Below, one piece after another: positions 12,550 through 64,000 of a stretch of DNA of 64,000 nucleotides; the stretch's first letter is position 1; each line of letters begins with the position of its first letter. A program made the translations under genes and the position numbers. Below the pieces are notes generated by a model that worked only from the letters and a program-made list of their open reading frames with translations, was not told the DNA's origin and ran no database searches. Where the stretch lies: contig JAIVFJ010000190.1 in NCBI GenBank assembly GCA_025765615.1, positions 59,842 through 123,841 of the forward strand, in the 5' to 3' direction. Source of the stretch: Zopfochytrium polystomum. Taxonomy: Eukaryota > Chytridiomycota > Chytridiomycetes > Chytridiales > Chytridiaceae.

Positions 12550-12551
12550 TC

Positions 12552-12562: not shown

Positions 12563-12589
12563 CACCCTCTCCCACTACTCTCTGCCATC

Positions 12590-43286: not shown

Positions 43287-44291
43287 AAGGGGGGCGACAG
43301 GACGAAGAACTTGAAGGGGACCTCAACCCGACGCACGTGGGCGACGACGCTGTGTGACCGGTTGAAGGCTCAATGGCAGGGTGAGGCCAGAGCCTAGACT
43401 TGCCAGACTAGGTGGTGGTGTGGTGGAGGAGAAGGGGCTTGCTTGCTTAAGAGAGGGAGGCCCCCCCTAAAGAAGGGTGACGGGGGCCTCGAGTGTTGGA
43501 CTTGTTGCTTGGTGTTTGAACTAGAGAAGTTTCTTGACCAGAGGGACTTTACTCAGCGTGAGCTTTCGGCTGTTTTGGCAGCCTCTTCAGACGCTTGAGT
43601 GAACAAAGAAAAACCAAGGGTTAAGAAACTTCAAACCAAAGGGACCAACAAGGGTGATTGCAACACTTGGGGTTTGAAAGCAAGCAAGGGATAGGGGATC
43701 AAGGGTTGGTTGCACTCACACACACACACACACACACACAAAGAAAGAATAAAAGACAGCATCATACCTCAAACCAAATGTCAAGGGCACAGGGGACACT
43801 TTTGGGTTTGGAAGAGTTTCTGGCAAGGAGAGGGGTGAAAGGGGGGGGCCCTGCCAGGCTTTATATACCCCCAGCCCAAGGGGGTCAAGCCATGAAAGGA
43901 AATGGAATGAATGAAACAGCAAAAAAGGAAAAGGTGATTCCAAAGGTGATACCAAAGGTGATTCCAAAGGAGGGGTGATTCCAAAGGTGATTCCAAAGGA
44001 AAGGTGATTCCAAAGGAGGGGTGATTCCAAAGGTGATTCCAAAGGAAAGGTGATTCCAAAGGTGATACCAAAGGTGATTCCAAAGGAGAAGTGATTCCAA
44101 AGGTGATTCCAAAGGAGAGGTGATTCCAAAGGTGATTCCAATGGTGATTCCAATGGTGATTCCAATGGAAAGGTGATTCCAGTGGTGATTCCAAAGGTGA
44201 TTCCAATGGAAGGGTGATTCCAAAGGTGATTCCAAAGGTGATTCCAATGGTGATTCCAATGGTGATTCCAATGGAAAGGTGATTCCAGTGG
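43287..44291 (+). repeat. Subtelomeric unit S (3' truncated)
   Basis: Near-identical to the first part of 62519-63845. It starts AAGGGGGGCGACAGGACG, has a (CA)n tract near 43716-43741 and a minus-strand TATA (TATATAAAG near 43862), and ends in a 12-bp minisatellite. Telomeric repeats cut it off inside the minisatellite, so it lacks the 3' tail present in the other copy. No convincing gene: a short plus-strand frame ending VLAASSDA near 43599 is shared by both copies but unrecognised. Confidence 0.88.
43933..44291 (+). repeat. 12-bp minisatellite GGTGATTCCAAA in unit S
   Basis: About 360 bp of GGTGATTCC(A/C)A(A/T/G) units, some with GGTGATACC and some joined by GGAAA or GGAG. The units have no stop in several frames, so the long Ser-Pro-Leu-Glu or Trp-Asn-His frames on the minus strand are a by-product. 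Confidence 0.92.
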
Positions 44292-44315
44292 TTAGGGTAA
44301 GGTTAGGGTTAGGGG
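44292..44315 (+). repeat. Interstitial telomeric repeat between S and G
   Basis: TTAGGGTAAGG followed by TTAGGGTTAGGGG. It contains one variant unit (TAAGG). Confidence 0.93.
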
Positions 44316-44940
44316 AGGAAAAACTTTGCAATTTTTGGGGGTGGCGGATTCGGGGTGGCCGCGCGGTCGCCCCACCGCCGCCGCCGCCGCCTTCGATGGC
44401 GGCGGCGGGGGTGGTGTGGATCCCTCGCTGCCGGCGAGCAGCACGATCCACAGCGCCGCGAGTGATCGCGGCGTCAGGAACGACGAGTCTGAAGCGTGGG
44501 ATGCGATCCCCCTGGCTGGCCTGCGAAAATAGCAGTAACAGGACGCTTTTCGATCGCCAGACCTGCGATCCCCCCCTCGGTGCGACGCCGTCGGGCCGGC
44601 GAGCCCGTCGCCCCGCAGCTCACCCCAGACCTCCCGCATGGGACGCGTTCCCCCCGCTCGGCCCGGGAAATTAGGAGTACCGGGATGCGAAGGTGAGAGG
44701 GTGGGCAAGCCGTGTGTTGCTGGTTTGGTTGTAGTGCGACGGTCCTCCCTTGCCCCCGTTGCGCGGGCGCTTGAGCGCCCTCCCCCTTCCCCTTCGATCT
44801 GCGCGGGGTAGTGGCTGACCCCGCTACCCCCCGCTCTACGCACGGATCTCGTACTTCGCGGGTACGATCGAGAGGGGGTTGAGTCCCCCCGCCCGATCCC
44901 TTCCTGCCTTGTCACGGTCTTCTTCGATTCAGCAGTTTGG

Positions 44941-45420
44941 CGGCGCCTGGCGGCGCCACTTATCGGATTGGGGCGGCGCCTAGCGGCGCCGCCCCTCGGC
45001 CTGGCGGCGCCTTGGGGCGCCATCCTTCGGAATTGGGGCGCCTCGCGGGGCGCTACCATTCGGATTAGGGCGGCGCCTCGCGGCGCCGCCCTTCGGCTGG
45101 GGCGGCGCCACGGGGCGCCACCCTTCGGGTCTGGGCGGCGCCTCGCGGGGCGCCACCCTTCGGATCGGGGCGGCGCCGTGAGGCGCCGCCCTTCGGTTGG
45201 GGCGGTGCCTCGGGGCGCCGCCCCCTCGGTTGGGAAGGCGCCTCGGGGCGCCGTCCCAACCCGGTCGGGGAGGCGCCTCGGGGCGTCACCCTTCGCGTTC
45301 CGGTCAGGTCGACGCCCCTGGCGTCACCCACTCCGGATGGATGGGGCGGTTCCTGGTGCTCTGCCCCTCGGTTTTTCGGTTGCGGGCGGTGCCTTGTGGC
45401 GCCCCTCCTCGCACTCCGGT
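44941..45420 (+). repeat. GC-rich minisatellite in unit G
   Basis: About 15 diverged units near 30 bp, built on GGGGCGGCGCC-TCG-GGCGCC-(A/G)CCC-TTCGG. The paired GGCGCC blocks could form hairpins. Confidence 0.88.
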
Positions 45421-45429
45421 TGGTTTTCC

Positions 45430-45690
45430 TTCCGCTTTTAGCTTTTGGCTTTGCTTTTTCTTCGATTTTCGCATCCTCTTCGTTCCTTGCTTTTCTTTCG
45501 TACAGTGCTTTTTCTTCGATTTATGCTTTTGCCTGTTCGATTTGGCCCCCCTCTTCGCTCCGGATAGGGCGTTAGGTCTTTGCTTTTTCTTCGATCTTTG
45601 CTTATTCTTCGATCCCTGCTTTTTCTTCGAATTTTGCATTATCCTTCGATTTCCGCTTTTCTTTCTTCGATCCGGCCCCCCCCGTTGAGG
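45430..45690 (+). repeat. TTCGAT/TTTGCTTTTTC degenerate tandem repeat
   Basis: Repeated CTTTTTCTTCGAT and TTTGC words at roughly 20-bp spacing. A shorter stretch of the same kind opens the second G copy (49725-49835). Confidence 0.75.
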
Positions 45691-45946
45691 GGGGGCCCTA
45701 CGCATTCCCACCCCCCCCCCACTTGGGGGGGGGGGGTTGGGCCTCATAGTTTCCGTTGGTGGTTGTTCTTCGTTGGGTGTTAGTGTGGGTTTTTTCAAGG
45801 TTCGCCCTTTTTTCCCTCACGCCCGCACTCGGCGTATTCGGGCCTAGAAGCAGGTCTCTAACTGTTGTTTCCACTTCATCATTGGGCCGGTGAGGGTGGA
45901 TTCGATCACCAAAACAGTTGTAGTAGATAATAAATTTCTTGAGGAG

Positions 45947-45957
45947 TTAGGGTTAGG
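45947..45957 (+). repeat. Interstitial telomeric repeat between G and LINE a
   Basis: TTAGGGTTAGG. Confidence 0.95.
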
Positions 45958-48900
45958 AATGGATCATTGTGAAGATGTCAGAGCTGATTGTTGGATTGAC
46001 GTATTTTGCGCCAAGCGCACCTCTGGAGGCTCTGCAGGAATTCCAAGATCAAGTTAGTCAAGTTAGCACTCTTTTGCCTGCAGCACCCTTTCTGATCATT
46101 GGAGACTTCAACATTTGGATGCGTGAATATGGATGCCGCACTTCTGCTCCTGCTGAACGTGTTTGCTGGCTGCAGGACTGGCTGCGACCTCCTTCCCAGT
46201 GGAGGAGGGTTGCGCCGGTTCGTGGCCAGTGGACCACAATGACAGAGGGAAGGGCTGGTGGACCTGGTGGACAGGGGGTCACTGATCTTCTGTTTGTCAA
46301 CCAGCATGCTCTCCCCTTTGTTCAGAACCTGGTTGTCCATGATGACCCTTCAGAGTATGTTGGATTCTCAGATCACAGGCTGTTGACTTTCACCTTCAAT
46401 GGAGATCTGACCACCAAGCCCCCGTTTGAGCGCCTGAATGTTCGGAGACTCATGATGAGACAGACCAAGTATGCTAGCTGCCTTGAGAAGACCAGGAAAC
46501 CCATCAGAGCCCAGATTCATTCAGTTTGGAAAGAAGTTGAAGCTGCCGCTGAGGCCAGAGAGCTCTGGACTTTTGAGAGGCGCTTGGCTTGCGTGGATGC
46601 TGTTTCCAATCTGGTCGTGCAGTGGCTCATGGACAATGCTGTTAAGGTAGCTGGGAAAGTCCGCTTCAGGGGTGGATCTGGAGGACCAGAGGTCCGGGAG
46701 AAGCATCTGGAGGAGCTAAAGCGCCGTCGCGTGGAGGCGCGAAGGGCTGCTGAGGCTCACCCAGATGATGATCCTGTGGGGCAGAAGATGGCCTGGACTC
46801 AGTTTCGTCAGTGGAATAAGATTGTGAAGATTGCCATCAAGCGGTACAGGAAGCGTGTATATTCAGCTGTTCAGGACTCTGCTGTGCGCGACTTTGCTGG
46901 TGAGGCCAAGCGCATCAAGTGTCAGAAGGCACGTTCAGATAGGAGCCAGTGTGCCCTTGACCCCCAGAAGATGGGCCATTACGAAGACCATTTCCGCACA
47001 ACCATAGGCCATGAGCCAACTGGAACTGATGTCCCTGACGCCGTGGCTCTTGAAGAATCAGCAGTTACTGTGAACAAAGTCCCTCTGAAGCAGTCTGAAG
47101 TCTCCTGGATTAAGAAGGTTCATGTCGAAGAAGCCTGCAAGGTTGCCCCCAGGGGCAAAGCCCCTGGAGAAGACATGCTTTTTGGGGAGTTGGTCTCAAT
47201 TGCTCCGCACTTGGTTGCTGCAGTCCTGCACAGATTCTTTCAGCTTGTGGCCTCTCTTCATGTGGTTCCTTCTCTGTGGTCCGTGGCCAATGTGGCCTTG
47301 GTCTACAAGAACAAGGGGCTCAACAGCGATGTTGCAAACTACAGACCCATCTCCTTGTGCTCTAGGATGCGACTTGTGTTTGAGCGAGTGATTGCACCTC
47401 AGGTGGAGCGTGTGGTTGAAGGCATGATCCACAGGGCGCAGGGAGGTTTCAGAAGAAAGCGGTCCACCATGGACCAGGCCTACACTTTGCATGAGCTTCA
47501 GCAGCTGAACCCCCAGATGCATGTGGTGTATTTGGACATTAAGGCTGCGTATGACTGCACAAACAGGAGTCTGGTGTGGGACTCCCTCTGGTTTGCCAGG
47601 AATGACAAGAGTCGTGACTTTACAAGGACTCAACTGCTGCCGATCCTCAGATCTTTGTTTGATTTCAATGCATGCCAGCTGCTGGTACTTGGGAACAAGT
47701 CTGCTCAGATCCAAGTGACAAGAGGATTTCTCCAAGGCACAGTCCTGTCACCCATGCTGTTCAATGTTGCCATCAACTCCTTGCCTCAGACATTGGCCAT
47801 GTCTTTCAGGGACCACATGTTGACATTTAATGCAACCTCCCTAAACTCACTGCTCTTTGCTGATGACTCCTCTGTCTTTGCAAAGGATGCGACAGTACTT
47901 CAGAGAATGCTAGACAAGGTGCATGAGTGGTCCCTTAAGCGGGGGATGACATTTGCTGCCAAGAAATGTGTTGCAGTTTCAGCCAAGAAGAATTTGAAGT
48001 TGAAGATGAATGGAGTGGAGATTCCCCAGGAGGAGTCTACTACCCAGTTGGGTCTTGTGCGCACCTGCAGGGGTATTGACTTTGAGGCCTCACTGGCCAT
48101 GAGACTGAGGAAAACAGAAAAGATGCTGGCCTTTTTGGCTGCTCGGGGTTTCAATGGCTGGGGCTTCAGGCCCGTGAGCTCTTACAGGGTTTACATGTGT
48201 TTCCTGAGACCAATGATGGAGTATGGGTTTGCACTGCGCCCCTTGACCCACACACAGCTGAAGGATGCGCAGAAGTTGCAGGACAAGTGCCTGCGGCAGG
48301 CGCTGTCACTGGGGAAGACCTCCTCAGGGGCGGCCCTGCACCTGATGTTTGGAGTGGTCCCTGTGGCAGCCAGGAACAAGATGCTGAATGCCAGATACTT
48401 TTTCAGACTGCACCACATTCAGGATGCTCGCAACACAACGGCTCAGATGTACAGGCACATGGTGGAAAAGATTGCTTCAGGGGCCTCTGTGGGACAGTCC
48501 TTGACAAAGTTCTCGCTTGACTATACGGGTATTCAGGATTTTTTGGACTCTGTGAGGCGGCCCTCCTTTGTGGAGGTGCCACTTGTGGTTCCCACAACCA
48601 AGGCCTATGACATTGAGTTGCCAGCGGTGAGAACAAAGAACATTGAGGCTGCAGACATGCTGGCAATGCACAAGCGGGCTTTGGTGAGGTGCCAGCAGAA
48701 ATCCTCCCCCACCGGGGTTGCTCAGGCTTTGGAGGCGCCTTCACACATGGGGCCATGCCAAGTTATTCGATCTGGTGCGGCATTTAACAGGAAGTGGCTC
48801 AGACACCTGCTGATGTGGATGGCTGGGATGGTAGCATTTCACCAACAGTGTGCAAGGGCTGGCTGTGCAGAGAAGTGCACTAGGAGGCATGTTTTGGAGT

Positions 48901-49427
48901 GTTCAGGGGTTAAGGACAGGCTGGAGAGGCTGCATCCTGAGTTGATTCCCACTGCAGAGCAACAGGATTTGAACATTTCAGCAGTGGATTTGGGCCTAAG
49001 GTCGCTGGTCTTTTGGGCCCCCTACAGTGCCAAAGCTGAGGACAAGATCTCTAAGGAGACTCGCATTACATCAAAGAAGATGGGAATGAAGCTGGCCAGG
49101 ATGATCATGCAGATGCGCATTGAGTGTGGAGGGCTTGCAAATTTCACTGATGCTTCAGAGACAACAGCGGCAGAGGAGGCAGAGGTCGTGGTGGAGGCAG
49201 GTCGTGTGGACCGACAGGATATGAGCATTCAGGAACGGATGGCAGCAGCCAGGGTGCGCAAGCTTGCAAGATCAGTCATCATCACTACCTATGATCCAGT
49301 AAGGAACAAACAGTGGCGGGAGTCAAGGGAGAAGTGGAAGAAGAAGGAAACTGAGGGTGTTGAGGGGACAGTGGACGGCAATGGGCATGTGGACTCTGAC
49401 TCAGAGGAGGAGGCTGGAACTGGGTGA
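45958..49427 (+). pseudogene. LINE a ORF2 (endonuclease/reverse transcriptase), lacking its N-terminus
   Basis: The frame is open from the telomeric junction to TGA at 49425-49427 (about 1155 codons), with the first about 110 codons missing relative to copy b. It retains APE endonuclease motifs (LIIGDFNIWM, TDLLFVN, FSDHRLLTF), reverse transcriptase blocks (GKAPGEDMLFGELV, NYRPISLCSRMRL, YLDIKAAYD, LQGTVLSPMLF, LLFADDSSVF) and a C-terminal Cys/His cluster (CARAGCAEKCTRRHVLEC) in the position of LINE zinc knuckles. There are no internal stops. Loss of the endonuclease N-terminus should make it inactive. Confidence 0.92.
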
Positions 49428-49713
49428 CAGTTTGTGCAGTGTTTCAGGTGCAGTCCTTCGAACCTCATTTGTTATCTATTTGTTTTCTTGTTGTTAAATT
49501 TCATCTCACCTCTGTGGATCCTCTCCTCTTTTTCTTTTTGACCTAGTTGCTGTCCTTTGTTTTTCTCAAATTTTGATTCTCTACTTGGCACCTCTTTCTT
49601 GCCTCTGGACATGTTTCTCCTATTTCATATGTATGCACTTTTTAACTTTCAAAGTTGCAGATTCCTCACCTCTTCTCTTGGGGGGGTTGGAGCGAATAAA
49701 TCCCGTTGAAAAG
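45958..49713 (+). mobile_element. Telomere-inserted LINE copy a (5' truncated)
   Basis: A non-LTR retrotransposon joined at its 5' end directly to TTAGGGTTAGG and at its 3' end (CGTTGAAAAG) to another TTAGGGTTAGG, with no poly(A) tail. The 5' truncation falls within the endonuclease region of ORF2. It is very similar to copy b. Confidence 0.92.
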
Positions 49714-49724
49714 TTAGGGTTAGG
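49714..49724 (+). repeat. Interstitial telomeric repeat between LINE a and G'
   Basis: TTAGGGTTAGG. Confidence 0.95.
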
Positions 49725-50099
49725 CTCTTCGATTTTCGCCTCTTCTTCGACCCTTGCCTTATTTCTTGATCTTCGCTTTCTCTTCGTACCGTGCTTACTC
49801 TTCGCTTTATGCTTTTCTTTCTTCGATTTGGCCCCCCCCTCAGAGCAGGGGGGCCCTACGCATTCCCCACCCCCCCTGAAAGGGGGGGGTTGGGCCTCAT
49901 AGTTTCCGTTGGTGGCTGTTCTTCGTTGGGTGTCAGTGTGGGTTTTTTCAAGGTTCGCCCTTTTTTCCCTCACGCCCGCACTCGGCGTATTCGGGCCTAG
50001 AAGCAGGTCTCTAACTGTTGTTTCCACTTCATCATTGGGCCGGTGAGGGTGGATTCGATCACCAAAACAGTTGTAGTAGATAATAAATTTCTTGAGGAG
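49725..50099 (+). repeat. Unit G' (5' truncated copy of G)
   Basis: 375 bp matching the end of unit G, including the TTCGAT-type repeats, the G/C homopolymers and the tail ending CTTGAGGAG. It is cut at its 5' side against TTAGGGTTAGG, as the LINEs are. Confidence 0.88.
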
Positions 50100-50110
50100 T
50101 TAGGGTTAGG
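50100..50110 (+). repeat. Interstitial telomeric repeat between G' and LINE b
   Basis: TTAGGGTTAGG. Confidence 0.95.
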
Positions 50111-53100
50111 CACCACCAAATGTTGCCAAGTCTATCTATGCATCTGTGCCAAAGAAGTTGGAGACACTCTTGAGGGGGAAGTTGAAGGATCTCTCTCTGT
50201 ACCCATCTGCACCCTCTGGTGCGAAGGGGAAGGGGAGGGAAACTGAGACTGAACCCACTGCTGTGCGCGCAGGCGATGCCAATGCCATGGAAACATGAGC
50301 AAGTCATTGAGATTTGGATTTTTGAATGCCCATGGATCCCTAGCTGGACATTCAGATCAAGTTCAAGGAATTTTTTCAGATTTTCAAGTAGACTATATGT
50401 TGTTTTCAGATATTGGAATGTGGAGTTCTGACAGTATGAGTGCAGTTCGGGGTGTTGTTGCTGAGGCAAGGGGGGTGCCCCCTCCTTATCAACCTGGGCG
50501 GAATGTTGGAACAAGGGCAAAGAAAGGAGTGGCTGTTGTGGTGAGCGGGGACCTGGACAGTGATGCCCACCTGGTGGTGCAGACCCTGCACAGGTCCCCC
50601 AAGGGAGAATGGATAATTGTGAAGATGTCGGAGCTGATTGTTGGATTGACGTATTTTGCGCCAAGCGCACCTCTGGAGGCTCTGCAGGAATTCCAAGATC
50701 AAGTTAGTCAAGTTAGCACTCTTTTGCCTGCAGCACCCTTTCTGATCATTGGAGACTTCAACATTTGGATGCGTGAATATGGATGCCGCACTTCTGCTCC
50801 TGCTGAGCGTGTTTGCTGGCTGCAGGACTGGCTGCGACCTCCTTCCCAGTGGAGGAGGGTTGCGCCGGTTCGTGGCCAGTGGACCACAATGACAGAGGGA
50901 CGGGGGGTCACTGATCTTCTGTTTGTCAACCAGCATGCTCTTCCCTTTGTTCAGAACCTGGTTGTCCATGATGACCCTTCAGAGTATGTTGGATTCTCAG
51001 ATCACAGGCTGCTGACTTTCACCTTCAATGGGGATCTGACCACCAAGCCCCCGTTTGAGCGCCTGAATGTTCGTCGGCTCATGATGAGACAGACCAAGTA
51101 TGCTAGCTGCCTTGAGAAGACCAGGAAACCCATCAGAGCCCAGATTCATTCAGTTTGGAAAGAAGTTGAAGCTGCTGCTGAGGCTGGAGAGCTCTGGACT
51201 TTTGAGAGGCGCTTGGCTTGTGTGGATGCTGTTTCAGACTTGGTCGTGCAGTGGCTCATGGACAATGCTGTTAAGGTGGCTGGGAAAGTTCGCTTTAGGG
51301 GTGGATCTGGAGGACCAGAGGTCCGGGAGAAGCATCTGGAGGAGCTAAAGCGCCGTCGCGTGGAGGCGCGGAGGGCTGCTGAGGCTCACCCAGATGATGA
51401 TCCTGTGGGGCAGAAGATGGCCTGGACTCAGTTTCGTCAGTGGAATAAGATTGTGAAGATTGCCATCAAGCGGTACAGGAAGCGTGTATATTCAGCTGTC
51501 CAGGACTCTGCTGTGCGTGACTTTGCTGGTGAGGCTAAGCGCATCAAGTGTCAGAAGGCTCGTTCAGATAGGAGCCAGTGTGCCCTTGACCCCCAGAAGA
51601 TGGGCCATTACGAAGATCATTTCCGCACAACCATAGGGCATGATCCAACTGGAACTGATGTCCCTGACGCTGTGGCTCTGGAAGAATCAGCAGTTACTGT
51701 GAACAAAGTCCCTCTGAAGCAGTCTGAAGTCTCCTGGATTAAGAAGGTTCATGTTGAAGAAGCCTGCAAGAATGCCCCCAGGGGCAAAGCCCCTGGAGAA
51801 GACATGCTTTTTGGGGAGTTGGTCTCAATTGCTCCGCACTTGGTTGCTGCAGTCCTGCACAGATTCTTTCAGCTTGTGGCCTCTCTTCATGTGGTTCCTT
51901 CTCTGTGGTCCGTGGCCAATGTGGCCTTGGTCTACAAGAACAAGGGGCTCAACAGCGATGTTGCAAACTACAGACCCATCTCCTTGTGCTCAAGGATGCG
52001 ACTGGTGTTTGAACGAGTGATTGCACCCCAGGTTGAGCGTGTGGTTGAAGGCATGATCCATAGGGCGCAGGGAGGATTCAGAAGAAAGCGTTCCACCATG
52101 GACCAGGCTTACACTCTGCATGAGCTTCAGCAGCTCAACCCCCAGATGCATGTGGTGTATTTGGACATTAAGGCTGCGTATGACTGCACAAACAGGAGTC
52201 TGGTGTGGGACTCCATCTGGTTTGCCAAGAATGACAAGAGTCGTGACTTTACAAGGACTCAACTGCTGCCGATCCTCAGATCTTTGTTTGATTTCAATAC
52301 ATGCCAGCTGCTGGTACTTGGGAACAAGTCTGCTCAGATCCAAGTGACAAGAGGATTTCTCCAAGGCACAGTCCTGTCACCCATGCTGTTCAATGTTGCC
52401 ATCAACTCCTTGCCTCAGACATTGGCCATGTCTTTCAGGGACCACATGCTGACATTTAATGCAACCTCGCTCAACTCGCTGCTCTTTGCAGACGACTCCT
52501 CAGTTTTTGCCAAGGATGCGACAGTACTTCAGAGAATGCTAGACAAGGTGCATGAGTGGTCCCTTAAGCGGGGGATGACATTTGCTGCCAAGAAATGTGT
52601 TGCAGTTTCAGCCAAGAAGAATTTGAAGTTGAAGATGAATGGAGTGGAGATTCCCCAGGAGGAGTCTACTACCCAGTTGGGTCTTGTGCGCACCTGCAGG
52701 GGTATTGACTTTGAGGCATCGCTGGACATGAGACTGAGGAAAACAGAAAAGATGCTGGCCTTTTTGGCTGCTCGGGGCTTCAATGGCTGGGGCTTCAGGC
52801 CCGTGAGCTCTTACAGGGTTTACATGTGTTTCCTGAGACCAATGATGGAGTATGGGTTTGCACTGCGCCCCTTGACCCACACACAGCTGAAGGATGCGCA
52901 GAAGTTGCAGGACAAGTGCCTGCGGCAGGCGCTGTCACTGGGGAAGACCTCCTCAGGGGCGGCCCTGCATCTGATGTTTGGAGTGGCCCCTGTGGCAGCC
53001 AGGAACAAGATGCTGAACGCTAGATACTTTTTCAGACTGCACCACATTCAGGATGCTCACAACACAACGGCTCAGATGTACAGGCACATGGTGGAAAAGA

Positions 53101-53536: not shown

Positions 53537-53552
53537 GTTAGGGTTAGGTTAG
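50295..53552 (+). pseudogene. LINE b ORF2, C-terminally truncated by telomeric repeats
   Basis: It starts at ATG 50295 with a well-formed endonuclease N-terminus (LRFGFLNAHGSLAGH), then WSSDSMSAVRG, GDFN and SDH motifs, and reverse transcriptase with FADD. The frame reads into TTAGGG repeats after HVLECSG and stops at about 53552. It differs from copy a by a four-codon deletion in the linker between endonuclease motifs (MTEGRGVTDLL) and scattered substitutions. Confidence 0.92.
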
Positions 53553-53561: not shown

Positions 53562-56165
53562 AACAGGCTGACAAAGGTGGCCATCAAACGCTACAGGAAG
53601 AGGGTGTACTCTGCTGTGCAGGACTTAGCTGTCAAGGACTTTGCTGCTGAAGCCAAGAGAATTAAGTGTCAGAAATCCAGAGTGGAGCGCACTCACTGTG
53701 CCCTTGACCCTCAGAAACTTCCAGACTATGCTGATCACTTTAGGGGAACCATTGGCCATGAGCCAACTGGTACTGATGCCGTCAACCAGAATGTCTTAGC
53801 TGCCTGCAGTGCTGAACGGCCCATGGTGCCTCTGAAGCTATCTGAAGTAGCCTGGATCAAGAAGAATGCTGTGGAAGAGGCTTGCAAGATTGCACCCCGG
53901 GGCAAAGCCCCAGGGGAGGATGCCCTGTTTGGCGAACTGGTGTGCATTGCCCCACATGTGGTGGCTCCTGTGTTGCAGAGATTCTTTCAGCTGCTTGCAG
54001 CCCTACAGGTGGTTCCCACACTCTGGGGGATCGCGAATGTTGCCCTGGTGTACAAGAACAAGGGGGTGAACACTGATGTGGCAAACTACAGGCCAATTTC
54101 TCTGTGCTCAAGGTTGAGGCTGGTGTATGAGCGGGTGTTGGCCCCGCAGGTGGAAAGAGTGGTTGAAGGAATGATCCACCCCTCACAGGGTGGTTTCAGG
54201 CGCCACAGGTCCACCATGGACCAGGCATTCACTCTTCATGAGCTTCAGCAACAGTACCCTGATCTGACTGTGGTGTACTTGGACATCAAGGCTGCCTATG
54301 ATTGCACAAGCAGGAACTACGTGTGGGAATCCATCTGGAATGCCAAGAATGACAAGAGTCCTGAGTTCACCAGGAACCAGTTGCTGCCGATTCTCAGATC
54401 CTTGTTTGACTTTAATGCGTGCCAGCTTCTGGTCATGGGACAGAAGTCTGATCAGATTCCAGTGACGCGGGGATTTCTACAGGGAACTGTGCTGTCCCCA
54501 ATGCTGTTCAATGTTGCCATCAACTCGCTGCCTGAGGCGCTCTCTAGGGTGCCCCACAGCCAGTTGGAATGTGGTGGATTGAAGATCAACTCTCTGCTGT
54601 TTGCTGATGACTCTGCAGTGTTTGCAAGGAACAAGGCTGTCCTTCAGAATCTGCTTGATGAAGTCCACAACTGGTCCCAGAGGCGGGGCATGACCTTTGC
54701 AGCACAAAAATGTGTTGTTGTTTCCAAGACACGAAACTTGAGATTGCAGATGAATGGGGTGGTGCTCCCCCAGGAGAAGACCACACTGCAGCTGGGACTT
54801 GTGCGTGATTGCAACGGCATCGACTTTGAGACGTCTCTGCAGATGAGGGTGAAGAAGACTGAGAAGATGCTTCAGTTTCTGAAATCTCGAGGGTTCAATG
54901 GCTGGGGATTCCGGCCTGTGAATGCGTACAGGGTGTACATGTGCTTTCTGCGGCCCATGCTGGAGTATGGGTTTGCACTGAGGCCAAATTCAGAGGCCTT
55001 CTTGGCCCCGGCCCAGAAGGTCCAGGACATGTGTTTGCGCCAGGCTTTGTCTTTTGGGAAAACATCCAGCACTGTGGCAATGCATCTGATTCTTGGAGTG
55101 GTGCCTATGGTTGCACGCAACAAAATGTTGAACGCGAGATATTTCTACAGACTGCACCACACTCAGGACCAGAGAAACACCACCGCACACATGTACAGGC
55201 ACATGGCGGAGCGGGGGCGGCGGGCTCCTGCAGGATCCCTCACCAGGCTCACTCTGTTCACACCGGATGTGGATCTATATTTTGGGTCAGTGCCACGGAA
55301 GGCCTTGGCACAGATTCCGTTTGTCAGACACAGGACTTATCCGTATGACCTTGAAGTTACCAGATCGGAGCCCAAAAACATTGATGCTGTGGCTATGCAG
55401 AAGATGCACACTGTGTCACTTGAGAAGTATAAGGAAAAGGCCAACTTGACTGGAGTGGTGGCACCCCTGGTGGTCCCCCCTCACCGGGGGCCCTGCCAGG
55501 TGGTTCGTTCTGGTGCAATGTTTAACAGGAGGTGGTTGAGATGCCTTGTGGCTTGGATGGGTGGCCGTGTTGCCTATCACCAGAAGTGCAAGAAGTGTGA
55601 TGCTGAGCTGGACAGGAACCATGCCTTGGAGTGTTCAGGTGTGCGCCGCCTCCTGGAGGCGGACCACCCTGAGTGCGTCCCAAGCGTGGAGCAGGCGAGG
55701 AGGAACATCACAGTGCTGGATCTGCTGCTGCAGACTCTGACTTTCTGGGCGCCCTACACAGCCAATGATGCGGATAAGATCCCTCAGGAGACGAGGGTTG
55801 CTTCAAAGAAGCTGGGGATGAAGCTTGCTAGGCTGATTGCAAAGATTCGAGTGGAATGCGCTGGAATGAGGGACTTTGTGGATGCTTCAGAGACCACAGC
55901 AGATCAGGAGGCGGACTATTTGATGGAAGCAGGGACAGTGGATGATAGGAGGGCGGATCTTAGGACTCGCATGCAGATGGCACAGGTGCGGCGGCAAGCT
56001 AGGGAAGCCCTGCGTGCGCACTGGGATCCAGTGCGCAACAAGGGGTTCAGGGAATCGAGGAACAGGTGGCTGGCTAAGGAGACTCAGGCAGTGATGGGGA
56101 AGCCGGACGGATCCGGGTGGGTTGACTCTGATACAGAGAGTAGAGCTTCAGTGGGAGGTGGATGA
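53562..56165 (+). pseudogene. LINE c ORF2, N-terminally truncated
   Basis: About 866 codons open from the telomeric junction to TGA at 56163-56165. The endonuclease is absent. The reverse transcriptase is complete (APGEDALFGELV, NYRPISLCSRLRL, YLDIKAAYD, LLFADDSAVF), followed by the C-terminal zinc cluster CKKCDAELDRNHALEC (C-x2-C-x7-H-x3-C). No internal stop. Confidence 0.92.
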
Positions 56166-56456
56166 GTGTCTGTTTCTGTTGCCTCATCATTTGTTTTCTA
56201 TTTGTTTTTTGTTGTGTTGACTTTATAGTTTTAAGCTGTTGTCTGGTTTAAGTTTGGTTCTACTGTTCTTTCAGACCTCTTCTCTTCACCTTGGCCTCTT
56301 TGTTTTTCTTCTTCGTTGGCTTTCTCTCTCTCTCACATGTGCCCCCTCTGACCTCTTGGACTTTCTTTCTTTTCCTTCATATGCATGTACTTTTTTAACT
56401 TTCAAGCTGCAGATTCCTCACCTTCGGGTTGGAGCGAATAATACACTATTGAAAAG
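53562..56456 (+). mobile_element. Telomere-inserted LINE copy c (5' truncated)
   Basis: It starts inside ORF2 before the reverse transcriptase and runs to the 3' end ACACTATTGAAAAG next to TTAGGG. It is very close to copy d and clearly distinct from a and b. Confidence 0.93.
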
Positions 56457-56469
56457 TTAGGGTTAGGGG
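56457..56469 (+). repeat. Interstitial telomeric repeat between LINE c and LINE d
   Basis: TTAGGGTTAGGGG. Confidence 0.95.
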
Positions 56470-58471
56470 ACTTTTTCTTTCTTCACATTCTCGTAGCGGG
56501 TCGAAGACACGCTCGAGGACGACGTCGCAAGGCAAAGTCAAGGTCAACTTCGACTTCAACCTGTCCAAACAAACCAAACTCCCTTTCGCGCCGATCACCG
56601 CCACACCCACCGCCACCGCCGCGCCTTCTGAAGCTGTCCTAGGCAGTCAAGAAATCGCCGGTAGTGCGCCGCAACCGCCGCCTCCGTTCCCGCGGGACCG
56701 ATTCAACGTCACAACCGCTGAGGAATTCCACGCTCTCGAGCGTGATCTCTTCCGTTATCACCAGAAGGCCATTCGCTGCGACGATTGCGGGAAGCCACTT
56801 GTATCCAAGGGGATCGCTGGCAATCCCAACTCAGTCTCAGGCGTCAAGCGGCTCTCCATCCATTGCACCAGTTGCAAACGATCGGCGTCGAGACGTTTCC
56901 ACAAGGCGATCGCAGATCTGGACTCCACCGACGCAGACGACCTTGAAGCAGCTAACAGGCGCGTATACACTGCAGCAGCCTCTGCCGCACCTCCGATCTC
57001 CGCCCTACCCCCCGCCACACCATCCCAACCCAGTCGGCACCCAAAACAGCGCACCCCCCCGTCAATCGACACGCTGAACGCGAAACGAGGTCGGCCAGCA
57101 TCGTGCGACGCCGCCCCTCCGCCCACCGGATCTGTGTCTGCATCCCGCGACACCGCGCTCCCCGCCCCCCCCGATAGTGACCCGTTCGACAACGACGACG
57201 ACAATTGGCTTGTTGACACCAACTTCAACATGGCGTCCCTCAGGAACGATACGCCTACTTCACCGCAGCTATCTTCGCAGACCGCACTCACCGGCGCACC
57301 CTCTGGTTCCGAATATACCATTATTCCCCCGACAACCGCCGAACTCATCAATTTCATCGCCAACCAACAACGTAAATGGGAGGCGCAGGAGCGCCTTAAT
57401 CGACTCTCAAAGGACAAGGACAAGTATTTTACGGAGACCATTGACGAGATGAAAGGGAGGATTAACGAATTACAGGATACGATCAAGGAGAAGGATGCGC
57501 GCATCCGGGCGCTTGAGGCAGAGCTGGAGCGCGCCCGCGAAGCGCGTCGGGATCGTAGGATTGATGACGAGGAGGAGGAGGAGGAAGGAGATGAGGGGGA
57601 CGACGCTGAGCGGCGGTCGGTCGGGAAGGTGGCGATACGAAAGGAGAGGCCCCGCCCCCCCTCCCGTACAGCAGTAACGCGCCAACCGAGCAGTGGTGGC
57701 TCTGCCGCTGCTCGCCGGCTTCCGCTAAGTTTTGCCGCAATGGCAGCTGCCCATGCTCCTGAACCGCTGTTTCCTAACAACTTCCGCAAGGCACTGAAGA
57801 CAATTACCGACCCCAAGGTTGACACTGAGACCAAGCTCAAGCAGATCTTCAGACCCAGATCCTCCGTTGTCGAGGCGCGCCGCGCAGCGCCAGACTATGT
57901 CCCGCCTGCGTGGTCCCTTGACGGAGCGAAGTATGTTCCAGTCTATGTCAGACCCAATCTTTCAGATGTTGGCCGGGCTGCGCCCCGCCATAGTTTGAGA
58001 CTGCTATTCACTGCTGCAAATGGATTCCCCCGAGTTCCTGAGATCTCCGTGATTGGCAAGCATGCATCGCTGATGGAATGCTGGGTTTTGGAATCTGAGA
58101 AGGCCAAGTTTGTGGCAGCCTGTAAAAAGGCTGAGGTTGTGGTGGATGATGAGTGTGAACCCTGGAAACCCTCACGCCTTCGATTGGGGGCTGAGGCTGA
58201 AGCTGCTGCTGCACGAGCCTTTGTGAGCCGCATTGCTGGAATTCTGAACCACCCGACATTCCGCCCATCTGTGCTGCTGGCAAAGTCTATCTGTGAATTT
58301 GTGCCCCGCCGGTTTGTGGCTGACCTGAAGGTGAAGCTTCGCGACCCGTCACACTTTCCCACCAAGGGGAAGGAGCCGGAGACGGAGGCAGAACCTTTGG
58401 AGACACCCAAGCCTCGTGGGGCTGAAGACACAGGAGCTTCCAGTGGTGCCGACGCTATGCTTGATGATTGA
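56470..58471 (+). CDS. LINE d ORF1 (zinc-motif and coiled-coil nucleic-acid-binding protein), 5' end open
   Basis: The frame is open from the telomeric junction to TGA at 58469-58471, about 667 codons. The first in-frame ATGs appear only late (57134 is out of context as a start), so the true start is missing or non-AUG. From the junction: a disordered Pro/Thr-rich part, a CxxC...CxxC pair (CDDCGKP at about residue 102, CTSCKRS at about 131) suggesting a zinc ribbon, another disordered Pro-rich stretch, a coiled coil (about residues 290-365, with INELQDTIKEKDARIRALEAEL), an acidic run, and a conserved C-terminal domain shared with copy b. ORF1 proteins of LINEs bind RNA; here telomere targeting may also lie in ORF1, but that is inference. 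Confidence 0.8.
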
Positions 58472-61400
58472 TGAACTTAGATTTGGATTTGTGAACTTGA
58501 ACTGCTCGCTCTCAGGGCATGTCAAGAACATCGACCAAGCATTTTCAGATTCAGATTATATTTTGTTGGCGGACACTGGGGTGTGCGTGGGGGAAAGTAA
58601 TCCATTGAGGGGGATGGTGGCAGAGTCTCGTGGGCCCCCCCCGGAGTATGTGGTGCGCCAGGCGATCGGACACAAGGGGAAGAAGGGGGTGTCGATCCAC
58701 AAGAGCAGGAGGATGGAGGAAGACCTGGTGGTTCAGACTTTGGAGAAGGACACAAAGGGGGAGTGGGTCATTGCGAGGATGTCAGAGATTATTATGGCAG
58801 TGGTGTACTTTGCACCCTCGACGGATTTGGAGGTGCTTCAGTCATTCTCAGCAACAGCAGACAGGATTGCTGGGGCTAATCCCCAGGCACCCTTTCTGAT
58901 CATTGGAGATTTCAACACTTCACTGCAGGAGTACGGCTGTGCCCACTCGCAGCCCAGGCTGAGGGTGGACTGGTGGCGCGCTTGGATTGATGGTTCAGGA
59001 TGGAGCCGGGTTGAGCCAGTTCGGGGCCAGTGGACCACCTTCTCACCTAGAATTGCTGGCCCTGCAGGCAGGGGAGTCACTGACTTGCTCCTTGTGAATC
59101 GAGCTGGACTTGGAGCTGTGCATAACTTGGTTGTCCATGACGCACCTGAGGAATACCTGGCTTTCACAGACCACAGGATGCTCACCTTTGAGCTTCGAAC
59201 ACACTTGACCATGAAACCACCCTTTGAGAGACTGAATGTGCGCAGGCTGATGCTGAGACAAGTCCAGTATGAGAAGAAACTTGCAGAGACCAGGAAGCCC
59301 TTGAGACAAGAGATTCACTCAGCGTGGAAGACTGTGAATGCGGCTGCTGTAGCCCAGGAGGAGTGGTCTTTTGAGCGCAGACGTGCCTGTGCAGACTCTG
59401 TATCTCAGTTGGTAGTGAAGTGGCTTGTGGACACTGGAGTCCAAGTGGCTGGGAAGACCAAGTTTAGTGGTGGTGCAGGCGGCCCTGATGTCGAGGAGAA
59501 GCATTTGGAGGAGCTGAAGCGCCGGCGGGACTTGTCCCGCATGGAGGCTGAAGCCCACCCTGATGCTGATCCTGTCGGGCAGAAGGACGCCTGGGCAAAG
59601 TTCAGGCAGTGGAACCGGCTGACAAAGGTGGCCATCAAACGCTACAGGAAGAGGGTGTACTCTGCTGTGCAGGATTTAGCTGTCAAGGACTTTGCTGCTG
59701 AAGCCAAGAGAATCAAGTGTCAGAAATCCAGAGTGGAGCGCACTCACTGTGCCCTTGACCCTCAGAAACTTCCAGACTATGCTGCTCACTTTAGAGGAAC
59801 CATTGGCCATGAACCGACTGGAACTGATGCCATCAACCAGGATGTCTTAGCTGCCTGCAGTACTGAACGGCCCATGGTGCCTCTGAAGCTATCTGAAGTT
59901 GCCTGGATCAAGAAGAATGCTGTGGAAGAGGCTTGCAAGATTGCACCCCGGGGCAAAGCCCCAGGGGAGGACGCCCTGTTTGGCGAACTGGTGTGCATTG
60001 CCCCACATGTGGTGGCTCCTGTGTTGCAGAGATTCTTCCAGTTGCTTGCAGCCCTCCAGGTGGTTCCCACACTCTGGGGGATCGCGAATGTTGCCCTGGT
60101 GTACAAGAACAAGGGGGTGAACACTGATGTGGCAAACTACAGGCCAATCTCTCTGTGCTCAAGGCTGAGGCTGGTGTATGAGCGGGTGTTGGCCCCGCAG
60201 GTGGAAAGAGTGGTTGAAGGAATGATCCACCCCTCACAGGGTGGTTTCAGGCGCCACAGGTCCACCATGGACCAGGCATTCACTCTGCATGAGCTTCAGC
60301 AACAGTACCCTGATCTGACTGTGGTGTACTTGGACATCAAGGCTGCCTATGATTGCACAAACAGGAATTATGTGTGGGAGTCCATCTGGAATGCCAAGAA
60401 TGACAAGAGTCCTGAGTTTACCAGGAACCAGTTGCTGCCGATTCTCAGATCCTTGTTTGACTTTAACGCGTGCCAGCTTCTGGTCATGGGCCAGAAGTCT
60501 GATCAGATTCCAGTGACCCGGGGGTTTCTACAGGGAACTGTGCTGTCCCCAATGCTGTTCAATGTTGCCATCAACTCGCTGCCTGAGGCGCTCTCCAGGG
60601 TGCCCCACAGCCAGTTGGAATGTGGTGGATTGAAGATCAACTCTCTGCTGTTTGCTGATGACTCTGCAGTGTTTGCAAGGAACAAGGCTGTCCTTCAGAA
60701 TATGCTTGATGAAGTCCACAACTGGTCCCAGAGGCGGGGCATGACATTCGCAGCACAGAAATGTGTTGTTGTTTCCAAGACAAGGAACCTGAGATTGCAG
60801 ATGAATGGGGTGGTGCTCCCCCAGGAGAAGACTACACTGCAGTTGGGACTTGTGCGTGATTGCAATGGCATTGACTTTGAGACGTCTCTGCAGATGAGGG
60901 TGAAGAAGACTGAGAAGATGCTTCAGTTTCTGAAATCTCGAGGGTTCAATGGCTGGGGATTCCGGCCTGTGAATGCGTACAGGGTGTACATGTGCTTTCT
61001 GCGGCCCATGCTGGAGTATGGGTTTGCATTGAGGCCAAATTCAGAGGCCTTCTTGGCCCCGGCCCAGAAGGTCCAGGACATGTGTTTGCGCCAGGCTCTG
61101 TCTTTTGGGAAAACATCCAGCACTGTGGCAATGCATCTGATTTTTGGAGTTGTGCCGATGGTTGCACGCAACAAGATGCTGAACGCGAGATATTTCTACA
61201 GACTGCACCACATTCAGGACCAGAGAAACACCACTGCACACATGTACAGGCACATGGCTGAGCGGGGGAGGCGGGCTCCTGCAGGATCCCTTACCAGGCT
61301 CACTCTGTTCACACCGGATGTGGATCTATATTTTGGGTCGGTGCCACGGAAGGCCTTGGCACAGATTCCGTTTGTCAGACACAGGACTTATCCATATGAC

Positions 61401-62216
61401 CTTGAAGTTACCAGATCTGAGCCCAAGAACATTGATGCTGTTGCTATGCAGAAGATGCACACTGTGTCACTTGAGAAGTATAAGGAAAAGGCCAACTTGA
61501 CTGGAGTGGTGGCACCCCTGGTGGTCCCCCCTCACCGGGGGCCCTGCCAGGTGGTTCGTTCTGGTGCAATGTTTAACAGGAGGTGGTTGAGATGCCTTGT
61601 GGCCTGGATGGGAGGCCGTGTGGCCTATCACCAGAAGTGCAAGAAGTGTGATGCTGAGCTGGACAGGAACCATGCCTTGGAGTGTTCAGGTGTGCGCCGC
61701 CTCCTGGAGGCGGACCACCCTGAGTGCGTCCCAAGCCTGGAGCAGGCGAGGAGGAACATCACAGTGCTGGATCTGCTGCTGCAGACTCTGACTTTCTGGG
61801 CGCCCTACACAGCCAATGATGCAGATAAGATTCCTCAGGAGACGAGGGTGGCTTCAAAGAAGCTGGGGATGAAGCTTGCTAGGCTGATTGCAAAGATTCG
61901 AGTGGAATGCGCCGGAATGAGGGACTTTGTGGATGCTTCAGAGACCACAGCAGAACAGGAGGCCGATTATTTGATGGAAGCAGGGACAGTAGATGATAGG
62001 AGGGCGGATTTGAGGACTCGCATGCAGATGGCGCAGGTGCGGCGGCAAGCTAGGGAAGCCCTGCGTGCGCACTGGGATCCAGTACGCAACAAGGGGTTTA
62101 GGGAATCGAGGAACAGGTGGCTGGCTAAGGAGACTCAGGGAGTGACGGGGAGGCCGGACGGATCTGGGTGGGTTGACTCTGATACAGAGAGTGGAGCTTC
62201 AGTGGGAGGTGGATGA
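58464..62216 (+). CDS. LINE d ORF2: APE endonuclease, reverse transcriptase, zinc cluster
   Basis: 1250 residues from ATG 58464, which overlaps the ORF1 stop (ATGATTGA). The frame is open further upstream, but this ATG is preferred because ELRFGFVNLNCS aligns with the start of copy b. Domains: APE-type endonuclease (about residues 1-240: LIIGDFNTSLQEYG near 145, TDLLLVNRAG, FTDHRMLTFEL), a linker rich in Arg/Lys, reverse transcriptase (about 480-830: NYRPISLCSR, GGFRRHRSTMDQA, YLDIKAAYD, GTVLSPMLF, LLFADDSAVF near 728), thumb/C-terminal region, zinc cluster CKKCDAELDRNHALEC (about 1058-1073) and a basic tail. It would nick telomeric DNA and copy the RNA in place. Intact by eye. Confidence 0.93.
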   Translation: MIDELRFGFVNLNCSLSGHVKNIDQAFSDSDYILLADTGVCVGESNPLRGMVAESRGPPPEYVVRQAIGHKGKKGVSIHKSRRMEEDLVVQTLEKDTKGEWVIARMSEIIMAVVYFAPSTDLEVLQSFSATADRIAGANPQAPFLIIGDFNTSLQEYGCAHSQPRLRVDWWRAWIDGSGWSRVEPVRGQWTTFSPRIAGPAGRGVTDLLLVNRAGLGAVHNLVVHDAPEEYLAFTDHRMLTFELRTHLTMKPPFERLNVRRLMLRQVQYEKKLAETRKPLRQEIHSAWKTVNAAAVAQEEWSFERRRACADSVSQLVVKWLVDTGVQVAGKTKFSGGAGGPDVEEKHLEELKRRRDLSRMEAEAHPDADPVGQKDAWAKFRQWNRLTKVAIKRYRKRVYSAVQDLAVKDFAAEAKRIKCQKSRVERTHCALDPQKLPDYAAHFRGTIGHEPTGTDAINQDVLAACSTERPMVPLKLSEVAWIKKNAVEEACKIAPRGKAPGEDALFGELVCIAPHVVAPVLQRFFQLLAALQVVPTLWGIANVALVYKNKGVNTDVANYRPISLCSRLRLVYERVLAPQVERVVEGMIHPSQGGFRRHRSTMDQAFTLHELQQQYPDLTVVYLDIKAAYDCTNRNYVWESIWNAKNDKSPEFTRNQLLPILRSLFDFNACQLLVMGQKSDQIPVTRGFLQGTVLSPMLFNVAINSLPEALSRVPHSQLECGGLKINSLLFADDSAVFARNKAVLQNMLDEVHNWSQRRGMTFAAQKCVVVSKTRNLRLQMNGVVLPQEKTTLQLGLVRDCNGIDFETSLQMRVKKTEKMLQFLKSRGFNGWGFRPVNAYRVYMCFLRPMLEYGFALRPNSEAFLAPAQKVQDMCLRQALSFGKTSSTVAMHLIFGVVPMVARNKMLNARYFYRLHHIQDQRNTTAHMYRHMAERGRRAPAGSLTRLTLFTPDVDLYFGSVPRKALAQIPFVRHRTYPYDLEVTRSEPKNIDAVAMQKMHTVSLEKYKEKANLTGVVAPLVVPPHRGPCQVVRSGAMFNRRWLRCLVAWMGGRVAYHQKCKKCDAELDRNHALECSGVRRLLEADHPECVPSLEQARRNITVLDLLLQTLTFWAPYTANDADKIPQETRVASKKLGMKLARLIAKIRVECAGMRDFVDASETTAEQEADYLMEAGTVDDRRADLRTRMQMAQVRRQAREALRAHWDPVRNKGFRESRNRWLAKETQGVTGRPDGSGWVDSDTESGASVGGG

Positions 62217-62501
62217 GTGTCTGGTTCTGTTGCCTCATCATTTGTTTTCCATTTGTTTTTTGTTGTGTTGACTTTATATTTTTAAGCTGTTGTCTGGTTT
62301 AGGTTTGTCTCTACTGCTCTTTCAGATTTCTTCTCTTCACCTTGGCCTCTTTGTTTTTCTTCCTCTTTGGCTTTCTCTCTCTTACATGTGTCCCCTCCTG
62401 ACCTCTTGGACCTTCCTTCCTTCACACGCATGTACTTTTTTAACTTTCAAGCTGCAGATTCCTCACCTTCGGGTTGGAGCGAATAATACACTATTGAAAA
62501 G

Positions 62502-62518
62502 TTAGGGTTAGGGTTAGG
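62502..62518 (+). repeat. Interstitial telomeric repeat between LINE d and S'
   Basis: TTAGGGTTAGGGTTAGG. Confidence 0.95.
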
Positions 62519-63845
62519 AAGGGGGGCGACAGGACGAAGAACTTGAAGGGGACCTCGACCCGACGCACGTGGGCGACGACGCTGTGTGACCGGTTGAAGG
62601 CTCAATGGCAGGGTGGGGCCAGAGCCTAGACTTGCCAGACTAGGTGGTGGTGTGGTGGAGGAGAAGGGGCTTGCTTGCTTAAGAGAGGGAGGCCCCCCCT
62701 ATGAGGGTGACGGGGGCCTCGAGTGTTGGGCTTGTTGCTTGGTGTTTGAACTAGAGAAGTTTCTTGACCAGAGGGACTTTATTCAGCGTGAGCTTTCGGC
62801 TGTTTTGGCAGCCTCTTCAGACGCTTGAGTGAACAAAGAAAAACCAAGGGTTAAGAAACTTCAAACCAAAGGAACCAACAAGGGTGATTGCAACACTTGG
62901 GGTTTGAAAGCAAGCAAGGGATAGGGGATCAAGGGTAGGTTGCACTCACACACACACACACACACACAAAGAAAGATTAAAAGACAGCATCATACCTCAA
63001 ACCAAATGTCAAGGGCACAGGGGACACTTTTGGGTTTGGAAGAGTTTCTGGCAAGGAGAGGGGTGAAAGGGGGGGGCCCTGCCAGGCTTTATATACCCCC
63101 AGCCCAAGGGGGTCAAGCCATGGAAGGAAATGGAATGAATGAAACAGCAAAAAAGGAAAAAGTGATTCCAAAGGTGATACCAAAGGTGATTCCAAAGGAG
63201 GGGTGATTCCAAAGGTGATTCCAAAGGAAAGGTGATTCCAAAGGTGATACCAAAGGTGATTCCAAAGGAGAAGTGATTCCAAAGGTGATTCCAAAGGAGA
63301 GGTGATTCCAAAGGTGATTCCAATGGTGATTCCAATGGAAGGGTGATTCCAAAGGTGATTCCAAAGGAGAGGTGATTCCAATGGTGATTCCAATGGTGAT
63401 TCCAAAGGAGAGGTGATTCCAAAGGTGATTCCAAAGGTGATTCCAGTGGTGATTCCAATGGAAGGGTGATTCCAAAGGTGATTCCAATGGTGATTCCAAT
63501 GGTGATTCCAATGGAAAGGTGATTCCAAAGGTGATTCCAGTGGTGATTCCAATGGTGATTCCAATGGAAGGGTGATTCCAAAGGTGATTCCAAAGGTGAT
63601 TCCAGTGGTGATTCCAGTGGTGATTCCAATGGTGATTCCAAAGGGAAGGGTGATTCCAATGGTGATTCCAGTGGTGATTCCAGTGGTGATTCCAAAGGTG
63701 ATTCCAAAGATTCCAAAGAGATTCCAACCAAAAGAGGAAGAGATTCACCACAAAGGACCCCTCTGGGCGTCTGACACTGCCCAAAAAGGCAACTTCCATA
63801 AAAGGAAGGCGGTCACATGACCGCCATGTGACCAGTCACGGGGGC
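62519..63845 (+). repeat. Subtelomeric unit S' (distal copy)
   Basis: Second copy of unit S, with the same head, (CA)n tract, minus-strand TATA (TATATAAAG near 63089) and a longer 12-bp minisatellite. A 3' tail of about 120 bp is absent from the proximal copy and includes the near-palindrome GGCGGTCA-CA-TGACCGCC. It directly borders the terminal telomere. Confidence 0.9.
63161..63728 (+). repeat. 12-bp minisatellite in unit S'
   Basis: About 570 bp of GGTGATTCCAAA-type units, about 200 bp longer than in the proximal copy, with a different order of AAA, AAT and AGT variants. Confidence 0.92.
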
Positions 63846-64000
63846 TAGGGTTAAGGTTAGGGTTAGGGTTAGGGTTAAGGTTAGGGTTAGGGTTAGGGTT
63901 AAGGTTAAGGTTAAGGTTAGGGTTAGGTTAGGGTTAGGGTTAGGGTTAGGTAGGGTTAGGTTAGGGTTAGGGTTAGGGTTAGGGTTAGGGTTAGGGTTAG
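63846..64000 (+). repeat. Terminal telomeric repeat array
   Basis: 155 bases of TTAGGG running in the G-rich strand toward the window end, the right orientation for a chromosome end. The proximal part has TTAAGG variants and single TTAGG or TAGGG units, while the distal part is uniform. The sequence stops inside the array. Confidence 0.96.

Follow-up and report, generated by a model that had tools for sequence, protein, structure and literature searches.

The DNA analysed here (the window: 64,000 nucleotides, positions 59842-123841 of Zopfochytrium polystomum contig JAIVFJ010000190.1, C190 below) runs to the end of its contig, where transposable elements alternate with short tracts of telomere-like sequence. 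Eight units occupy positions 43287-63845 and are followed by a TTAGGG-type array that reaches the contig end, in agreement with a preliminary description of this DNA, and successive units are separated by tracts of only 22, 11, 11, 11, 22, 11 and 17 bp (11-25 bases in that description; Table 1). The 11-bp word TTAGGGTTAGG was observed 22 times in the window, against 0.01 expected from shuffles. G and the long interspersed nuclear elements (LINEs) a to d are retroelements with 3' ends set against an 11-bp telomere-like word: LINEs a, c and d terminate in ...TTGAAAAG and G and G' in ...CTTGAGGAG, in each case directly before TTAGGGTTAGG and, as had been noted for the LINEs, without poly(A). LINE b departs from the earlier statement that the LINEs always end against this word, as it lacks a 3' end and stops inside its second open reading frame (ORF2) at 53537. 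The single orientation described earlier holds for G and all the LINEs (plus strand), but not for S and S', since the long frames of the related unit at locus L091 lie on the opposite strand.

The window LINEs form two families, LINEs a and b being 96% identical, and G is regarded as 5'-complete because its 5' start is identical at other insertions. ORF2 of LINE d matches Pfam RVT_1 (E 2e-26), and its endonuclease is predicted to be of the apurinic/apyrimidinic (APE) type, N-terminal and preceded by a separate ORF1. The structure model of this domain (predicted local distance difference test, pLDDT, 90.9) has the fold of the LINE-1, TRAS1 and R1 endonucleases; several LINE-1, R1, TRAS1 and AP endonuclease folds score alike, to within about 1-2 Z, the model thus naming the fold and not the clade. 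A sequence search of the endonuclease against solved structures gave no match up to E 10, whereas the predicted structure does match in fold. Three named organisms appear among the 120 listed matches of the LINE reverse transcriptase, namely Chytriomyces confervae, Z. polystomum itself and Cladochytrium tenue; among viral contigs, 19 stretches fitted a pattern of relatives and none was confirmed.

Table 1. Features of the terminal mosaic, in window coordinates.
Feature	Position	Strand	Remarks
S, putative Penelope-like element 3' fragment	43287..44291	-	92.9% to L091 unit over 1037 bp; element 3' end on centromere side against GGATTAGG, other side cut, then TTAGGG; frames on opposite strand
Telomeric tract, 22 bp	44292..44313	+	final 11 bp are TTAGGGTTAGG; junction reading
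G, non-coding 1.6-kb unit, 5'-complete	44314..45946	+	starts GGAGGAAAAAC..., ends ...CTTGAGGAG
11-bp word	45947..45957	+	
LINE a, 5'-truncated: remainder of endonuclease domain, reverse transcriptase, 3' untranslated region	45958..49713	+	RVT_1 E 3e-25
11-bp word	49714..49724	+	
G', 5'-truncated G	49725..50099	+	89% to G
11-bp word	50100..50110	+	
LINE b, 5'-truncated, 3' end absent	50111..53537	+	alignment to LINE a
Tandem pair of TTAGGGTTAGG words separating LINEs b and c, not in hexamer register	53538..53559	+	
LINE c, of the LINE d family, 5'-truncated	53560..56456	+	96% to LINE d
11-bp word	56457..56467	+	
LINE d, 6.0 kb, both ends complete	56468..62501	+	other copies align from first base
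ORF1 open frame, 672 amino acids, stop to stop	56453..58471	+	no Pfam match
ORF2, predicted endonuclease and reverse transcriptase	58464..62216	+	first ATG 8 bases inside ORF1 end
Telomeric tract, 17 bp	62502..62518	+	
S', putative Penelope-like element 3' fragment	62519..63845	-	99.8% to L091 unit over 1324 bp
Terminal TTAGGG-type array to contig end	63846..64000	+	

The arrangement of the 3' ends follows a rule that extends beyond the window. We sampled 41 LINE-tail and 40 G-tail matches (about 40 best-scored of 117 and of 58 candidates, respectively, which places the G tail at at least 40 sites); 80 of these 81 matches, to which 17 tails lying near them at the loci read or in the window were added, gave 97 junctions, not all of them independent events, as near-identical copies are included (C44, C344/C262, C218/C3). 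The word following the tail was exactly TTAGGGTTAGG in 72 junctions and differed from it by one mismatch in 18, by two in one and by three or more in six, so that 91 of the 97 lie within two mismatches. Among the 161 intact LINE tails of the genome, 147 are directly followed by TTAGG. Element tails in ...GAAAAG or ...GAGGAG join TTAGG without poly(A). The earlier proposal that the LINEs end at a fixed junction in telomeric DNA, as target-primed reverse transcription yields, is thus upheld. In 68 of the 72 junctions with a canonical word no further hexamer follows, and in the remaining four, where another telomere-like hexamer is present, the next unit is an S unit (three cases) or a 5'-truncated RNA head (one case; see below). 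Since leftovers of a long repeat array would vary in length, this fixed size of 11 bp argues against such an origin of the spacers.

Insertions at interstitial sites indicate where the word comes from. Full-length G copies are flanked on both sides by GTTAGTGGTAG in C285, by TTAGGATTAGG in C262 and by TTAAGGGTTAGG in C218 and C3, while in C344 two different G copies have TTAGGATTAGG before, between and after them. Three insertions were searched for uninterrupted sites, using as query the joined flanks with a single copy of the word. The C262-type site has an uninterrupted counterpart on C56 (99%) with a single TTAGGATTAGG, as has a more diverged relative on C25, and the uninterrupted relatives of the C285 site are diverged (84-89%), four of the five aligned having the identical single word. 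With a single word in the uninterrupted sites and one word on each side of the insert, the duplicated stretch, about 10-12 bp long, is derived from the site and not from the element. The possibility that the word is carried by the element RNA was rejected, as the word varies with the site. Variant words also group by array: of the 12 pairs within an array in which a variant is present, 9 consist of identical words, when shuffles gave a mean of 1.1 and reached 9 in only 2 of 10,000 trials. The clearest array is that of C102, whose four junctions, belonging to two families, all have TTAGGGTTAGT. We also observed that the G insertion of C285 (L073 site) lies within a dispersed repeat in which GTTAGTGGTAG is itself present and which gave at least 40 scored matches.

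As the word is duplicated on insertion, and this also at interstitial sites, we interpret the spacers as target-site duplications that have been used again, in preference to leftovers of a long array, and arrays probably grow by reuse of their own duplicated site, which would account for the 11-bp spacing. We therefore consider it very probable that the array is a nest of site-specific non-long terminal repeat (non-LTR) retrotransposons with an APE-type endonuclease, from two LINE families, with Penelope-like fragments and with G and the RNA-headed chimeras as non-autonomous passengers, in which the duplicated word is used again and again. The model of the preliminary description, in which independent insertions entered a long terminal TTAGGG array and the spacers are its remnants, seems improbable to us. 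Three window tracts are longer than 11 bp, and arrays with canonical words lie less than 60 kb from the contig end to which they point in 9 of 12 cases, against 3 of 11 for arrays with variant words (p 0.04; junction sample, C4 and C16 being counted on both strands), as that model would have it, but the leftovers of a hexamer array should vary, when 68 of 72 canonical words stand without a further hexamer, and at interstitial sites a single word was duplicated. The earlier conclusion that the LINEs insert in telomeric DNA stands, with the difference that they target a telomere-like word of 11 bp, which is duplicated on insertion and serves at interstitial sites as well.

In the mechanism that we propose, the endonuclease would make its first nick next to TTAGGG, on the C-rich strand. 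The 3' OH set free there would prime reverse transcription from the 3' end of the RNA, and the second strand would be cut about 11 bp away. After each insertion the word would be present twice, both copies being open to further use, and arrays would in this way grow head to tail with a spacing of 11 bp. Breakage and telomere addition may form a further layer at true ends, and a Penelope-like element lacking an endonuclease could attach to the exposed G-strand end, as polarity and truncation suggest. The duplication is observed at interstitial sites; the strand order and the enzyme are our proposal.

Several observations weigh against this reading. Intact LINE tails without TTAGG after them amount to 14 of 161, two inverted LINE tails lie at CTAGGGCC (C4, C16), and a tail in C69, outside the 97 junctions, reads GAAACATTAGG. 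The fifth aligned relative of the C285 site differs in the last bases of the word, and the joined-flank query for C218/C3 found no uninterrupted site. In canonical TTAGGG arrays, that of the window included, a duplication is indistinguishable from pre-existing repeats and is assumed by extension from the interstitial sites. The Exo_endo_phos match of the LINE d ORF2 is weak (E 1e-4, under the Pfam cut-off). Finally, contigs in which plus and minus arrays face each other (C16) may be misjoins, and the repeated blocks of C44 and the 5.36-kb spacing of S on C448 and C400 indicate that duplication or assembly also shapes the arrays.

The elements occur in two settings, in terminal arrays and in interior arrays at telomere-like words. 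Contigs of about 100 kb or longer hold 91 of the first 100 listed of the 161 tails, in 44 clusters (some contig sizes being known only as bounds from size order). A contig end lies within 60 kb ahead of 25 of these clusters (52 tails), and the other 19 (39 tails) are interior. An exclusively telomeric location, which the preliminary description had raised as a point to check, is not confirmed, given these interior clusters. Copies outside telomeric repeats with target-site duplications, named in the preliminary description as evidence against its own proposal, do occur and count in part against it, but they lie at telomere-like words. At 20 kb or less from a contig end, 23 clusters point outward and at most eight inward (p 0.011). 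Two contigs have a peculiar organization: in C44 (321363-376797) array blocks recur near-identically (L036-L038, L080-L082), by duplication or through assembly, and in C16 an outward array is opposed to an inward one, with S in the middle, at about 472-493 kb, which may be a telomere fusion or a misjoin.

Arrays might instead be built by recombination, that is by unequal exchange, break-induced copying or circles in place of serial insertion, and the near-identical C44 blocks and the identical S copies spaced by 5.36 kb on C448 and C400 are what such processes would leave. We give this alternative very little weight, considering that neighbours belong to different families and have different 5' truncations and that C344 has two different G copies around one variant word; recombination acts in addition to serial insertion, not instead of it.

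S and S' are of another kind. The two align with the initial 1.0 kb (S) and 1.3 kb (S') of a unit of 5.36 kb that was read once on C448 (L091), the spacing of the matches suggesting that the same tandem unit is present on C400 and other contigs. The L091 unit has long open frames on the strand opposite to the S/S' match, and one of these contains reverse transcriptase motifs, such as RYIDD, which we take to be of the Penelope type. The Pfam RVT_1 match of this frame is weak (E 0.004, below the cut-off). The frame has 25 homologues and aligns with 10 of them, among which P0142 has a GIY-YIG domain. Neither long frame of this one unit gave any Pfam match at E 0.001, and none to GIY-YIG was obtained in the reverse transcriptase frame even at E 1. 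All 34 S matches begin at base 1-3 of the query, which is the 3' end of the element, a limited test as this is also where the query starts; in four the match breaks off early, once at a contig end. At eight distinct places the S-type 3' junctions adjoin TTAGG- or TTAAG-type sequence or TTAGGGTC. Both S and S' are cut on their 5' side with TTAGGG directly after, and their polarity is that expected for priming on an exposed G-strand end. Taken together, the sequences indicate that S and S' are 3' fragments of a Penelope-like element, with a polarity opposite to that of the LINEs, probably added to broken ends and then capped by telomeres. The reading of S as a LINE-like unit of the same chain was rejected on account of the opposite coding strand.

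In endonuclease-deficient Penelope-like elements, according to the available part of the account, exposed G-strand ends prime and truncated 5' ends gain telomeric repeats (PMC3846280). S and S' resemble Athena and its relatives, as presented there, in their Penelope-type reverse transcriptase, in the lack of a GIY-YIG match in the frame read, in a 3' end at telomere-like DNA and in a truncated 5' side followed by telomeric repeats (PMC3846280). Unlike Athena-type elements, they are found in tandem 5.36-kb arrays with an internal telomere-like tract, and their class was assigned by alignment.

S, LINE b and S' are each cut internally, with telomeric DNA directly after the cut; for S', this is the terminal array. 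LINE b is broken and capped, and the two words at 53538-53559 were probably produced by telomere addition at the break, the site being later used by LINE c. A similar case is that of C20 (L025), in which a LINE of the c/d family, cut about 400 bases short of its 3' end, adjoins the terminal array. We viewed 12 telomere-capped contig ends, of which two have a Penelope-like element (C190 and C63), one a LINE (C20) and one a fragment of LINE a/b near the array (C305), whereas at seven (C15, C42, C49, C56, C76, C84 and C564) no element was found in the 80-1500 bases read ahead of the array; C282 is telomere-like over all its 121 bases. Over the whole genome, all 132 matches to eight TTAGGG repeats lie on the plus strand of their contig, and no CCCTAA-type left ends were found. 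Exons for the RNA-binding domain of telomerase were located at C88:97724-98088. Given these exons and the seven element-free ends, retrotransposition as a means of end maintenance is not established, nor is the partial lengthening of ends in this way that had been suggested earlier. Addition of the LINEs to the chromosome end in place of telomerase, as in HeT-A, would produce head-to-tail arrays at ends, and we find it scarcely plausible here: elements of the HeT-A/TART type point their 3' end toward the centromere and go with an absence of telomerase, when the 3' ends of these LINEs are directed to the terminus, a polarity unsuited to priming on a G-strand end, and the telomerase exons and the seven capped ends without an element in the stretch read exist. 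That the junctions are false joins made by the assembly can be practically dismissed, for despite suspicious short all-repeat contigs, the facing arrays of C16 and the repeated blocks of C44, the junction rule holds in 147 of 161 tails and also at interstitial sites, where the flanks are unique and uninterrupted counterparts match them.

In 18 of the 97 junctions the next unit opens with a head of about 410 nucleotides, complete in 15 and cut on its 5' side in three. This head was found at at least 40 places (40 scored of 49 candidates; for example L031:1796-2204), with two 5' variants and the 3' end CTAGGTAC. ARAGORN predicted a tRNA-Cys over about its first 75 nucleotides at one of eight loci, and the Rfam matches were partial, resembling transfer-messenger RNA and below the gathering threshold, for which reason a known RNA family was rejected. 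The 11 distinct join sequences are at odds with the single fixed tail of a tRNA-derived short interspersed nuclear element (SINE). A telomere-like word lies ahead of all 11, and beyond the join we found G in six, a LINE in three and a sequence weakly matching ORF1 in one; in the eleventh (L045/L050) no downstream sequence was recognised. These heads would be explained if truncated cDNAs switched template to a free RNA, at its 3' end. U6-LINE-1 chimeras are likewise made of a discrete RNA fused to LINE copies. For the WEIRD-MGL chimeras of Magnaporthe, which have the same composition, template switching is proposed in the part of the report available (PMC2104539). The fusion of an RNA to a LINE is shared with both; here, unlike there, the head has a putatively tRNA-like start and all 11 chimeras begin at a telomere-like word.

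Elsewhere in the window, the minus strand has a tRNA-like gene at 43149-43222 (46 bits to Rfam tRNA), just ahead of the array, which is the sole match above the Rfam gathering threshold, the array itself giving none. Ty3/gypsy-like open frames occupy 8591-17148, one of them with 1255 codons.

In layout, endonuclease type and orientation, the closest system is SART1, one of the telomeric R1-type LINEs of the silkworm Bombyx mori, the likeness being based on these features. SART1 and TRAS of Bombyx mori, as far as the excerpted text describes them (PMC7265360), also have two ORFs, an APE-type endonuclease and a reverse transcriptase in ORF2 and insertion in telomeric repeats, and the window LINEs share with them this predicted ORF2 organization and a fixed 3' junction in telomeric repeats. 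In SART1, as here, the 3' end of the element is followed by the G-strand repeat, from which it is deduced in the same excerpt that the bottom strand is cut first (PMC7265360). SART1 is there described as having poly(A), as joining AGG (cut between TT and AGG) and as requiring at least three repeats (PMC7265360). In contrast, we found neither poly(A) nor the T/A cut of TTAGG: it is TTAGG that follows the tail, and about 11 bp of word are enough, even if degenerate and interstitial. The analogy drawn earlier with SART/TRAS is thus sustained for SART1 in endonuclease type and orientation, while that with MoTeR is loose, orientation and spacing being different. The accessible passages on MoTeR (PMC7367193) report an endonuclease that is putatively restriction-like, an orientation in which the 5' ends lie closest to the terminus, and spacers that vary between half a repeat and over 20 repeats. 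The elements studied here resemble MoTeR in being fungal, telomeric and arranged in head-to-tail arrays, MoTeR1 also having a non-autonomous partner (PMC7367193), and differ from it in that their 3' ends face the terminus with 11-bp spacing. FoTeR, MoTeR1 and Cnl1 group with CRE, SLACS and CZAR by reverse transcriptase and restriction-like endonuclease in the portion of the text at hand (PMC12857005), when here an N-terminal APE-type domain is predicted. The list of telomeric-repeat inserters in another study comprises SART, TRAS, GilM, GilT, Zepp1, MoTeR1 and Tx1-1_ACar, the word chytrid being absent from its text (PMC10088271). No chytrid description was found among the papers listed by searches of an open-access collection (titles and abstract openings), and priority is not established.

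An APE-type set in a chytrid, with an orientation opposite to that of MoTeR, would represent an independent arrival at the same niche as that of the CRE-type fungal LINEs. According to the authors of the FoTeR study, in the portion available, target-site duplications could not be identified with certainty within telomeric repeats (PMC12857005). Insertions at single telomere-like words, unlike these, make the duplications readable, and for this reason cut positions and array growth become directly testable. In a wider perspective, which we advance tentatively and would not quite back at even chances, the genome of this fungus may harbour a community of telomere-word retroelements, in which APE-type LINEs re-seed arrays at any telomere-like word through their duplicated 11-bp target, passengers share this site and repeatedly capture a tRNA-like RNA at their 5' side (possible nascent SINEs), and Penelope-like elements of opposite polarity extend broken ends on these same chromosomes. 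If this is true, target reuse would be a general route from an interstitial telomere-like word to a long array.

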